Shown: piece after piece, positions 24,342 to 27,307 of the stretch
How the letters are laid out: each line of letters opens with the position of its first letter
Numbering within the stretch: position 1 is the stretch's first letter
Source: Planctomycetota bacterium
GTDB taxonomy: Bacteria > Planctomycetota > Phycisphaerae > Phycisphaerales > SM1A02
Assembly (NCBI GenBank): GCA_021414025.1
Contig: JAIOPG010000002.1
Span: forward strand, 310,001 to 374,000
Length of the DNA stretch: 64,000 nt
Direction of reading: 5' to 3'
Notes under the pieces: generated by a model
Database searches by the model: none
The model's input: only the letters and a program-made list of their open reading frames with translations
Told to the model about the DNA's origin: nothing
Program-made: the position numbers and the translations under genes

Positions 24342-25394
24342 TTAGTGCTTGGTGTCGCCGCTGCCCTGGTACTTGTCCAGGGATTCCTTCATCTCTTCAA
24401 GCATGTCGCCTTCGATGCCGTTCTTGGTTCCCAGGGCCACGGCCTGCTGCTGCGTGGTGAGCGCCTTGGCCTTGTCGCCGCGCTCCCAGTAGACGCGGGC
24501 GAGGGTGTCGAGAATCGCCGGATCCGATGACTTGGACTTGGAGACGGCCTTCTCAGCCGCGGCCAGCGCGAAATCAAGGTCGCGGTTCTTCGCGGGCATT
24601 TCGGTGGCGGTGACCCAGGCCAGCTGGTTGAATTCCTCGGCTTCAAGGTCCTTGCCCAGGAGCTGCTTGCCGACGGCGATCGCCTCGCCGGGCTGATTGG
24701 CGGGGCCGCTGAGAATCTGGAACTTCACCATCGACCACCGGGTGGAGTTCGGATTTTGCTTGATCATCTCGTCGAGTTTCGCCAGCGCCGGTGCGTAGTC
24801 ACCGCTCTTGTTGGCAGCGCCCAACATCTTGGTGAGCTCGCGGCCATCCTCTTCGCTCTTGGCCTGCGCCTCGGCGGCCTGCTTGGCCTTGGTCCGGTCC
24901 CAGGTGCCGGCGACCACAGCGGTCAGTGGCTTGTCCATCTCCATCGGGTGGCCGATCCATTCGATCGTTCCATCCTTGCCCACGATGAAGGCGGTGGGGA
25001 TGCCCTCGGCGCCGGCGGCGTCCAGCCAGGACTTGCCCATGTCGCGGTCACCATCGAAGGCAATGCGGTAGCCCATCGCATCGCCCTTGTTGGCCACGAA
25101 GGACTTCAGCTTCTCCAGGCGGGCGTCGGTCGCGCCGCTCTTGCGCTCGCTTGCGGCGACTGCGATGAACTGGACCGATGGATTGTCCTTCTGCATCTGG
25201 GTGAGATGGGGAATGCTCGCGATGCAGGGCCCGCACCAGGTCGCCCAGAATTCGACGACGTAGGGAGTTCCGGTCTGGAGCTCCTTAACGGGCTCGCCCT
25301 TGACCCAGGCGTCGACCGCGAGCGGCGGAGCCTTGGATCCAATGGTCAGCGTTGCGGGAGCGGCGAGGACGAGGGCGACGAGGGTGGTGAACAT
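24342..25394 (-). CDS. Secreted thioredoxin-like (TlpA/redoxin) protein with helical C-terminal part
   Basis: Exported thiol-disulphide protein. The signal peptide is MFTTLVALVLAAPATLT, with cleavage likely after APA. The thioredoxin fold carries the redox motif WATWCGPC (about 52-59) and a cis-Pro region GIPTAFIVGKDG typical of TlpA/ResA. Residues from about 190 onward are helical and TPR-like (NQLAWVTATEMPAKNRDLDFALAAAEKAV). The start at 25394 is set by a strong AAGGAG 8 bases upstream and by the signal peptide; the longer frame upstream is rejected. Upstream TACCAT could be its -10 box, giving a leadered transcript. Substrate is unknown. Confidence 0.85.
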   Translation of the reverse strand: MFTTLVALVLAAPATLTIGSKAPPLAVDAWVKGEPVKELQTGTPYVVEFWATWCGPCIASIPHLTQMQKDNPSVQFIAVAASERKSGATDARLEKLKSFVANKGDAMGYRIAFDGDRDMGKSWLDAAGAEGIPTAFIVGKDGTIEWIGHPMEMDKPLTAVVAGTWDRTKAKQAAEAQAKSEEDGRELTKMLGAANKSGDYAPALAKLDEMIKQNPNSTRWSMVKFQILSGPANQPGEAIAVGKQLLGKDLEAEEFNQLAWVTATEMPAKNRDLDFALAAAEKAVSKSKSSDPAILDTLARVYWERGDKAKALTTQQQAVALGTKNGIEGDMLEEMKESLDKYQGSGDTKH

Positions 25395-25450
25395 GGCGAT
25401 CTCCTTGAGGAGGGAATGGTACCACGGAAAACCTCCGCCACTCCCGGCAT

Positions 25451-25456
25451 TATGCT
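25451..25456 (+). promoter_or_regulatory. Close -10 box of folD
   Basis: TATGCT ends 6 bases before the ATG at 25463, without a ribosome-binding site between. Confidence 0.55.
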
Positions 25457-25462
25457 TGCGGC

Positions 25463-26311
25463 ATGAGCTGCCGCATGCTGGATGGAAAGTCGCTCGGCCT
25501 GAAAGTCCGTGAGGATGTGCGCTCCCGCGTCCTCGCTGCGGGACGGCCCGCGCGGCTGGACGCCGTGCTGGCCGGCTGCGATCAGGCCGCGGAGCTTTAC
25601 GCCCAGAGCCAGGCACGCACCTGCGAGGAGGCGGGCATCCACTATGTGCTGCACCGACTGCCTGCGGAGAGCACCTACGACGACATCGCCGGGCGCGTGC
25701 TGCTGCTCAACACCGAGGAGCAGGTGCAGGCGATCATGCTGCATCTGCCGCTGCCGCCCGGCATCGACGTGGAGCGCGTCCAATCCCTGATTGCGCCGGA
25801 GAAGGACGTGGAGGGAGTGAATCCCGCCAACATCGGCAACGTGGTCTATGGCCGGCGCAGCCTGGTGCCTTGCACGGCGCTGGCGGTGCTGGAATTGATC
25901 GAGAGCTCGAAGATCAACCTGCAAGGGGCACTTTGCGTGGTGGTCGGCGCCAGCAACATCGTGGGCAAGCCGGTCGCCGTGCTGCTGATGCGGGCCAATG
26001 CGACCGTGGTGAGCTCGAACAAATTTACGAGCCAACTGCACAACCTCACCCGCGGCGCTGATGTGGTGGTCGCCGCGGCGGGAGTGGCCGGTCTGGTCAA
26101 GGGCGACTGGATCAAGCCCGGCGCTGTGGTCATCGACGTGGGCATTCACCGCGTGAAGGGGCCGGATGGTCGGACGATCACGCTGGGCGATGTCGACCAC
26201 GAAAGTGTCGCGCAGGTCGCGGGTTTCCTCACCCCCGTTCCCGGCGGCGTCGGCCCCATGACGGTGGCCATGCTGCTCCGCAATGTTGCGGACGCCTGCC
26301 TCGACCGCTGA
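25463..26311 (+). CDS. folD: FolD-family methylenetetrahydrofolate dehydrogenase, altered active site
   Basis: One-carbon enzyme of the FolD family (282 residues), cytosolic. The NADP-domain motif VVVGASNIVGKPVAVLL, GDWIKPGAVVIDVGI and the terminal TPVPGGVGPMTVAML are all present. The catalytic cleft is unusual. The Tyr of the Y-x-x-x-K motif is kept (LYAQSQART), but the Lys position (Lys56 in the human enzyme) is Gln. The Gln of QLPLP (human Gln100) is His, and the Asp of KDVDG (human Asp125) is Glu. These residues serve the cyclohydrolase and folate-binding steps in characterised enzymes, so this protein may be a dehydrogenase only, or may have another role. It is convergent with purC, 6 bases apart. 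Confidence 0.88.
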   Translation: MSCRMLDGKSLGLKVREDVRSRVLAAGRPARLDAVLAGCDQAAELYAQSQARTCEEAGIHYVLHRLPAESTYDDIAGRVLLLNTEEQVQAIMLHLPLPPGIDVERVQSLIAPEKDVEGVNPANIGNVVYGRRSLVPCTALAVLELIESSKINLQGALCVVVGASNIVGKPVAVLLMRANATVVSSNKFTSQLHNLTRGADVVVAAAGVAGLVKGDWIKPGAVVIDVGIHRVKGPDGRTITLGDVDHESVAQVAGFLTPVPGGVGPMTVAMLLRNVADACLDR

Positions 26312-26317
26312 ATTCCT

Positions 26318-27307
26318 TCAGGCGCCAAGCATCTTCGCGGCCTGCTGATAGCGGGCGATGGTCTTCTCGACCACATCGTGCGGCAGCTCGGGCCCGGGCG
26401 GCGTGCGGTTCCAGCGGCCAGCGGCCTCCTCGGCGAGCAGCCAGTTGCGAACGAACTGCTTGTCCAGGCTCTCCGGCTCCTTGGTGGTGCCCAAGCTTGA
26501 AGCGATCCAGTAGCGGCTCGAGTCGGGCGTGAGCACTTCGTCGGCGAGCACGAGCTCGTCGGTGGCCTCGCCCTTGGCGTCCAGCGCAAAACCGAATTCG
26601 AACTTCGTGTCCGCCAGAATGAGACCGCGCTCGGCGCAGCGTTCGGCGGCCGCGCGGTAGATGGCCAGGCTCGCCGAGCGGAGCCGTTCCATGACCGCGC
26701 CGCCGACCGTCGCCGCGGCCTGCTCGAAGGTGATGTTCTCGTCGTGGCCGCTCTGGGCCTTGCTCGCCGGCGTGAAGATCGGCTCGGGAAGGCGGCTCCA
26801 CTGGGCCAGCCCCGCCGGCAACGGGACGCCGCAGACCCGGCCATTCCTGAGGTACTCCGCGAAGCCGCTGCCCGCGAGCCAGCCGCGGACCACGCATTCC
26901 ACCGGAACGATGCGGACCTTTCGGCAGATCATGCAGCGGCCGCGCAGCATGTTCCGGTCGACTTCAGAAATCCCCGTAATGGAGGCGGGATCCGTGGTGA
27001 TCACGTGATCGGGGACGATGCCCCAGGCGCGGATGCGGCGGAACCACTCCATGCTGATCTCGGTGAGCAGCTTCCCTTTGCCGGGGATCGCCGTCGGCAG
27101 CACCACGTCAAAGGCGCTGATGCGATCGGTGGCCACCACCAGGATGCGGGGGAGTTCGCCCGCGGCGGCGGGAAGCTCGTAGAGGTCACGCACTTTTCCG
27201 GCGCGGCGGCCGCGCAGCGGAAGTTGGGTCTGTGTCACCGGCGCGTCGGGGTTCCCGGGCGGCGGCGCGGCGTGCTCGCGGCGCGGCGCGGACGATTTCG
27301 CTTCCAT
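26318..27307 (-). CDS. purC: Phosphoribosylaminoimidazole-succinocarboxamide synthase
   Basis: SAICAR synthase of purine synthesis, joining aspartate to CAIR with ATP. The 329-residue protein has the opening motif RAGKVRDLYEL around residue 35, and ATDRISAFDVVLPTAIPGKG. It also has the family signature ECVVRGWLAGSGFAEY, KAQSGHDENITF, and DTKFEFGFALD. The length is nearer the longer purC type than the compact E. coli type (237). The first 30 residues are Pro/Ala/Arg-rich and poorly conserved, so a start a little further in cannot be excluded. TAGCAT ends 6 bases before the ATG chosen. Confidence 0.93.
   Translation of the reverse strand: MEAKSSAPRREHAAPPPGNPDAPVTQTQLPLRGRRAGKVRDLYELPAAAGELPRILVVATDRISAFDVVLPTAIPGKGKLLTEISMEWFRRIRAWGIVPDHVITTDPASITGISEVDRNMLRGRCMICRKVRIVPVECVVRGWLAGSGFAEYLRNGRVCGVPLPAGLAQWSRLPEPIFTPASKAQSGHDENITFEQAAATVGGAVMERLRSASLAIYRAAAERCAERGLILADTKFEFGFALDAKGEATDELVLADEVLTPDSSRYWIASSLGTTKEPESLDKQFVRNWLLAEEAAGRWNRTPPGPELPHDVVEKTIARYQQAAKMLGA

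Follow-up and report, generated by a model that had tools for sequence, protein, structure and literature searches.

What becomes of a FolD protein when the catalytic Lys of its cleft, the Gln that partners it and the Asp that holds the pterin have all been exchanged? The question is raised by a gene in a 64,000-nucleotide stretch of planctomycete DNA (hereafter the window), whose features of interest are these:

25463..26311, + strand: folD, 282 aa (ORF and translation, Pfam PF00763 and PF02882, PDB sequence matches, AlphaFold)
25610..25612, + strand: codon of Gln50, which replaces the catalytic Lys (E. coli Lys54, human Lys56; alignment)
25742..25744, + strand: codon of His94, which replaces Gln (E. 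coli Gln98, human Gln100; alignment)
25811..25813, + strand: codon of Glu117, which replaces Asp (E. coli Asp121, human Asp125), in the motif KDVEGVNP (alignment)
26318..27307, - strand: purC (SAICAR synthase), convergent neighbour of folD, given as context (reading of the translation, neighbour search)

The adjacency of folD and purC is kept at many loci of Phycisphaerales, where a TlpA-like gene frequently lies on the opposite side (24342-27307 in the window).

The original prediction held that the equivalents of human Lys56, Gln100 and Asp125 read Gln, His and Glu, and an alignment of the window FolD to E. coli FolD that is gap-free at all three sites bears this out: E. coli Y-V-A-S-K corresponds to Y-A-Q-S-Q (Gln50), V-Q-L-P to L-H-L-P (His94), and K-D-V-D-G to K-D-V-E-G (Glu117). 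The catalytic Lys of YxxxK and its partner Gln, by which a bifunctional FolD is recognized, are both replaced. The ORF starts with ATG, its product exceeds both curated Pfam cut-offs (PF02882, 197.1 bits against 27; PF00763, 87.0 against 32.8), and a PDB sequence search returns a best E of 5.6e-62. FolD structures are the top structural matches of its AlphaFold model (mean pLDDT 94.7), with query TM scores of 0.87-0.94 against the FolD structures among the best 50 matches listed, including the E. coli FolD Q98H mutant (5o2a). The dehydrogenase scaffold (Tyr50 in E. coli numbering, the folate cleft and the NAD(P) domain) is in place, its residues being more than 95% conserved in both of the FolD classes described below. 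None of the best 25 of the 31 matched NCBIfam FolD models was passed by the protein (top score 274.1 bits, cut-off 396), a weak test, run without a canonical FolD control and with models that are possibly lineage-specific.

To ask how far the exchange extends, we consider a set of 61 related genomes (the window's own included), in 56 of which FolD was found, and write the residues at the three sites as trios in one-letter code. A QHE FolD is present in 44 of the 56 (41 with QHE only, and three, G035, G038 and G051, with a KQD FolD as well), and the remaining 12 have KQD only. Identity to the window FolD is 56-100% for the QHE proteins and 36-40% for the KQD ones, and all 44 of the 44 relatives' FolDs at 56% identity or above carry the identical Gln-His-Glu trio. 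Comparison of the window folD with its homologue L033 gives dN 0.137 and dS 1.53 (near saturation), so that the gene is under purifying constraint. The common trio and this constraint together rule out decay or sequencing error, and the prediction of functional change rather than decay stands.

A wider view comes from a residue table that also draws on a contig scan of named genomes (80 loci kept, the nearest of them from Phycisphaerales, Planctomycetota); 225 rows were read and 214 kept as different, although a few genes recur with different ends. These comprise 93 KQD, 79 QHE, 30 QQE and 3 QTE rows, one row each of QSE, QLE, QME and QAE, and, outside these, one TQE, two IQD, one IFD and one truncated row (-HE). 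Taking the first and third sites together, Q..E accounts for 116 rows and K..D for 93, with no row of Q..D or K..E; in every row having Lys or Gln at the first site, Lys pairs with Asp and Gln with Glu. The position of E. coli Gln98, in contrast, varies within the Q..E class (Gln, His, Thr, Ser, Ala, Leu, Met). Judged by these sequences, the window's trio is the mark of a subfamily and not a peculiarity of the window gene, and compared with Gln50 and Glu117, His94 appears to be a more recent and less strict change.

The Q..E class, which includes sequences from Ratteibacteria (L069), Firestonebacteria (L073) and Omnitrophota (L079), has other marks as well (E. coli numbering): Ser65 to Tyr, Pro143 to Ala, Gly145 to Ala, Leu111 to Gln and His124 to Asn, with Tyr50, the KD motif and the PGGVG loop kept in both classes. 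At E. coli positions 35, 82, 135, 158, 181 and 273, Lys, Arg or His is much commoner in the Q..E class than in canonical FolD; the window protein has Arg at five of the six and Gln at 158, and a basic residue may lie elsewhere in the cleft of Q..E FolDs. A separate observation concerns the co-substrate. At the positions that we matched ourselves to the NADP 2'-phosphate residues of the human enzyme (Arg173, His196 and Ser197, as given in PMC3368264), window residues 163, 186 and 187 (E. coli 167, 190 and 191) are Ala, Asn and Lys, and those of E. coli FolD are Ala, His and Arg. Since His190 (E. coli numbering) is kept in 93 of 93 K..D rows and is Asn in 72 of the 116 Q..E rows, the choice between NADP+ and NAD+ may differ in the Q..E class.

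The original prediction proposed a search of the genome for a second FolD, an FchA or a formate-THF ligase (Fhs). In the window's genome (2.8 Mb, 8 contigs, 97.5% complete), one FolD scores over the cut-off, and neither a second FolD nor Fhs does, so that backup by either is rejected; among the 61 relatives, Fhs is over the cut-off in only 4 (the QHE genomes G026 and G034 and the KQD genomes G052 and G057). The search did yield an FchA-family gene:

G000:C7:195585-196214 (window genome): P0003, FchA-like protein of the FTCD_C family, 209 aa (PF04961, 144.5 bits)

P0003 is the sole protein of FTCD_C (PF04961, the family that contains FchA) in this genome and stands alone, its 209-aa ORF carrying PF04961 only, without formiminotransferase domains; its start overlaps the end of an apparent pheT. 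Its PDB matches include a cyclodeaminase (1o5h), an FTCD (1tt9) and a cyclohydrolase (7vg4, E 9.7e-16), and its sole NCBIfam match, the FchA equivalog NF045657, falls under the cut-off (88.6 bits against 275). The genome also encodes three Formyl_trans_N proteins, which read as PurN, Fmt (beside def) and an ArnA-like enzyme. The ArnA-like formyltransferase L258 (G000:C2:39923-40414) reads as a fusion with an epimerase-like domain and is probably another user of 10-formyl-THF.

The pairing of an altered FolD with an FTCD_C protein recurs well beyond this genome. Counted over the cut-off, FTCD_C occurs in 44 of the 44 relatives with a QHE FolD and in 1 of the 12 with KQD only (Fisher 1.6e-10 for 41/41 QHE-only genomes against 1/12, kinship ignored), and that one, G023, has a fused formiminotransferase-cyclodeaminase. 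As to the three relatives with both FolD types, G035 and G051 each have one FTCD_C hit that Pfam identifies as a fused formiminotransferase-cyclodeaminase, G038 has a like hit in a 573-aa frame, and all three additionally have a distinct FTCD_C, with a frame of 223-249 aa. The long FTCD_C gene adjoins the KQD folD in each of them (L151 in G035, L149 in G038, L150 in G051), an arrangement that probably represents a histidine-degradation pair.

Among the contig-scan genomes, FTCD_C is over the cut-off in 38 of 43 with a Q-type FolD (42 of these read Q..E and one is truncated); without the five duplicates of relatives, recognized by identical hit places, the count is 33 of 38. The KQD genomes give 7 of 37 (Fisher 2.1e-9 for 33/38 against 7/37, kinship ignored). 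The five Q-type drafts with no FTCD_C over the cut-off (G075, G077, G078, G091 and G098, of unstated completeness) have one FolD each, and G077 has a 21-bit FTCD_C match under the cut-off. Four of the seven KQD genomes with FTCD_C have a fused FTCD in the sequences fetched, two have it in frames of 527 and 581 aa, and one, G118, has it in frames of stand-alone size (222-240 aa).

With FTCD_C in 290 of 392 genomes of the phylum, a comparison based on the KDVEGxNP DNA pattern (matched in 43 of the 392) is too coarse, and we therefore read the FolD sequences from 80 Planctomycetota genomes, picked for completeness and family spread with FTCD_C status and pattern matches already in view; FolD was found in 76 (one member, G505, is repeated in the contig scan as G103). 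FTCD_C is present in 31 of 31 genomes with only Q..E FolD (29 family codes by hand count) and in 16 of 37 with only K..D FolD, as well as in 1 of 4 with both types, 0 of 1 with IFD and K..D, 1 of 1 with TQE and 2 of 2 with IQD (Fisher 2.1e-8 for 31/31 against the 17/42 genomes holding a K..D FolD, kinship ignored). The FTCD_C frames of the 31 are below 300 aa in 8, of fused size (526-661 aa) in 5 (G155, with a further match, G158, G159, G161 and G166, the last confirmed as fused) and unlisted in 18; those of the 16 are below 300 aa in 6, 315-677 aa in 4 and unlisted in 6, so that FTCD_C of stand-alone size also sits beside canonical FolD in at least 6 of the 16. Outside the order, then, FTCD_C accompanies the Q..E class, in frames of stand-alone size in some genomes and of fused size in others.

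A few further genomes fall outside these comparisons. Other Lys-less FolDs (L332, L334, L338 and L340) have Ile-Gln-Asp in G183 and G245 and Thr-Gln-Glu in G232, all three of which have FTCD_C; the Ile-Phe-Asp FolD of G427 is an extra copy in a genome without FTCD_C. The genome G033, of the window's own family and stated to be 98% complete, has an FTCD_C match and no FolD match.

We give a probability of roughly 0.77 to the reading that the window FolD is dehydrogenase-only and that the FchA-like protein acts as the cyclohydrolase. FolD would convert 5,10-methylene-THF and NAD(P)+ to 5,10-methenyl-THF, having given up methenyl-THF hydrolysis; P0003 would add water to methenyl-THF to yield 10-formyl-THF, which would feed PurN, Fmt and the ArnA-like enzyme. 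Glu117, longer by one methylene, would still bind the pterin, the cleft having been remodelled so that hydride transfer can do without Lys. The change of Lys to Gln with Asp to Glu would have come first; with Lys lost, selection on Gln98 would have relaxed, letting that position drift to His, Thr, Ser, Ala, Leu or Met, with His fixed in the window's lineage. We base this reading on the trio shared by all 44 close relatives and the strict coupling of the two outer sites, on the way FTCD_C follows the QHE or Q..E FolD in the relatives and the phylum sample, and on the window's own genome with its P0003, single FolD and missing Fhs, to which the published mutants, yeast MTD1 and the evidence beyond kinship considered below are added. 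The prediction of a dehydrogenase-only enzyme thus gains support from the stand-alone FchA-family protein, the gene content and the co-occurrence, all of them read from sequence.

What is known of the residues themselves cuts both ways. In the human enzyme, Lys56 acts with Gln100, and the pterin is held by Asp125 (PMC3368264). For E. coli FolD, PMC5688156 reports that K54N has about 19% of dehydrogenase activity with cyclohydrolase undetectable, and that Q98H has about 8% of dehydrogenase and about 1% of cyclohydrolase activity. Single changes at Lys54 or Gln98 also cost most of the dehydrogenase activity, which counts against the dehydrogenase-only reading; the same authors remark that methenyl-THF also hydrolyses spontaneously. 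In the Bombyx MTHFD, the cyclohydrolase kcat/Km is 0.097 for K53A, 0.22 for Q97A and 0.13 for the wild type (PMC6443876, Table 2), and D120A keeps its cyclohydrolase efficiency and loses measurable methylene-THF dehydrogenase kinetics (PMC6443876). Yeast MTD1, a monofunctional dehydrogenase according to titles cited in PMC11064299 and PMC6443876, bears the molecule name methylene-THF dehydrogenase in PDB entry 1edz and has T/Y/E at the three sites, with the motif KDVEGLN. Because this enzyme has Glu at the Asp site, the exchange of Asp for Glu is evidently tolerated, perhaps favoured, in a dehydrogenase-only enzyme.

The retained activity of the Bombyx K53A and Q97A proteins, which counts against the dehydrogenase-only reading, is also an argument for a window FolD that is still bifunctional. 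Its Q..E site would then hydrolyse methenyl-THF by means of a water molecule positioned by Glu117, by His94 or by a basic residue gained elsewhere, and the FchA-like protein would do other work, such as cyclodeamination or help at high flux. The greater frequency of basic residues at six other positions in the Q..E class fits this alternative, as do the five Q-type drafts that have neither FTCD_C over the cut-off nor a second FolD and the score of P0003 under the FchA equivalog cut-off; each of these weighs against the dehydrogenase-only reading. We nonetheless consider retained bifunctionality unlikely, given the loss of cyclohydrolase activity in the E. coli mutants, the coupling of Lys to Gln with Asp to Glu, the variability of position 98 within the class, and the near-universal presence of FTCD_C where a K..D FolD is absent.

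The weight of the genome counts depends on how often the Q..E class arose. A single change suffices for the two classes in a FastTree built from 209 rows, 205 of which are Q..E or K..D, after removal of the three site columns. In a second tree of 98 rows, which includes the TQE, IQD and IFD rows and yeast, Q..E needs three changes, with L301 (QHE) grouping with the odd rows adjacent to K..D, and yeast MTD1 placed beside L270, both without starred support. With the active-site stretches dropped and six rows excluded as long or odd (L301, L332, L334, L337, L338 and L340), K..D is set apart by a branch whose SH-aLRT support is 97%, and a single origin of the Q..E class appears likely. The placement of yeast MTD1 with the Q..E class as against away from it gives p-AU 0.64, a value that favours neither, and an independent-pairs test on the FolD tree has one pair only and is without power.

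Since the class arose about once, independent events are few and the genome counts are not independent, and it can be argued that FTCD_C and Q..E FolD co-occur by vertical inheritance alone, the FolD changes being neutral to cyclohydrolase function. The frequency of FTCD_C in the phylum agrees with this, as does its retention in 4 of the 7 genomes with both FolD types (G035, G038, G051 and G369), which is counter-evidence of a kind that goes beyond kinship. Also beyond kinship, three observations speak the other way and lead us to regard inheritance alone as a decidedly improbable account. First, families f5 and f6 of the same order, with 11 genomes between them, combine a KQD FolD with absence of FTCD_C, whereas the genomes of f1-f4 in which FolD was found have QHE and FTCD_C, except for G023 (f1; KQD with a fused FTCD). 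Second, three genomes with both FolD types (G303, G387 and G460) have no FTCD_C match. Third, two other phyla have fchA immediately 5' of a co-oriented folD whose product reads Q/Q/E (L069 of Ratteibacteria, L079 of Omnitrophota). The FolD pairs of G303, G387 and G460 are each QQE and KQD (L272/L327, L273/L326 and L285/L328). On the debit side of the dehydrogenase-only reading we count, besides the approximately single origin of the class, the FTCD_C of 16 of 37 K..D-only genomes, of the KQD genome G118 and of the four genomes with both types, and the fused-size FTCD_C in 5 of 31 Q..E-only genomes.

Some planctomycetes use tetrahydromethanopterin (H4MPT). That the window FolD serves another C1 carrier or folate form of this kind, Glu117 fitting a different pterin edge, is an idea to which the pterin-holding role of human Asp125 (PMC3368264) lends some sense, and one that we think very improbable, since a search that matched in 3 of 14 controls found no methenyl-H4MPT cyclohydrolase (MCH) in the window genome, three formyltransferase-family proteins are present, the window FolD is the sole FolD over the cut-off, and yeast MTD1, with the same Asp to Glu change, is by its 1edz name a methylene-THF dehydrogenase. 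The H4MPT route in the window genome is rejected for want of an MCH, and the other folate substrate allowed for in the original prediction gains no support.

Comparison with known systems places the window protein more precisely. With bifunctional FolD and the MTHFD1 DC domain (E. coli, human) it shares the fold, both Pfam domains, Tyr50, Pro100, the KD motif, the PGGVG loop and the NAD(P) domain; it differs in the replacement of Lys54, Gln98 and Asp121, and its class differs in that PCTPxG is mostly PCTAxA and DGFHP has become EGVNP. Like the NAD-dependent yeast MTD1, it has lost Lys and Gln and exchanged Asp for Glu, although MTD1 has Thr and Tyr where the window has Gln and His, and is at most 34% identical to any FolD row over 119 kept columns. 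The carolacton-resistant E. coli FolD Q98H (5o2a), a close structural match of the window model, has the same Gln to His change at the same site, but as a spontaneous mutant that keeps Lys54 and Asp121. A separate FchA is likewise found in Methylorubrum extorquens, presumably the source of the 7vg4 cyclohydrolase matched by P0003; there the dehydrogenase is MtdA, of a family other than FolD, whereas that of the window genome is a true FolD. In Clostridium perfringens, too, dehydrogenase and cyclohydrolase reside on two proteins, FolD and FchA. Unlike the window genome, C. perfringens also has Fhs, according to a title cited in PMC7219735, a source by which split dehydrogenase and cyclohydrolase systems are already known.

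We suggest, more tentatively and at somewhat less than even odds, that Q..E FolDs as a whole form an ancient subfamily of their own, made up of obligate dehydrogenases and present in a large part of Planctomycetota and in three or more candidate phyla. In these enzymes the longer Glu would re-seat the pterin so that hydride transfer proceeds without Lys, and yeast MTD1 would have reached or inherited the same solution. If so, Glu in place of Asp after KDV would let dehydrogenase-only enzymes be recognized from sequence.

Searches of an open-access library listed no description of the Q..E class, by title or abstract opening. MTHFDs are said in PMC6443876 to have Asp at position 125, where a carboxylate is invariant, and the class is a large exception to the former statement, not to the latter. 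As Q..E proteins carry FolD domains, naming by family would call them 'bifunctional FolD', a label that makes an FchA-like gene elsewhere in the genome look redundant and that is probably wrong for the window FolD and for relatives with the same pairing. Re-annotation could follow a simple sequence rule, for which the yeast enzyme of known function is a precedent, and the coupled changes of Lys to Gln and Asp to Glu offer natural variants for learning how one cleft performs both reactions and what each of them needs. If our reading holds, it is FchA that these bacteria would need for their purines and their initiator tRNA.
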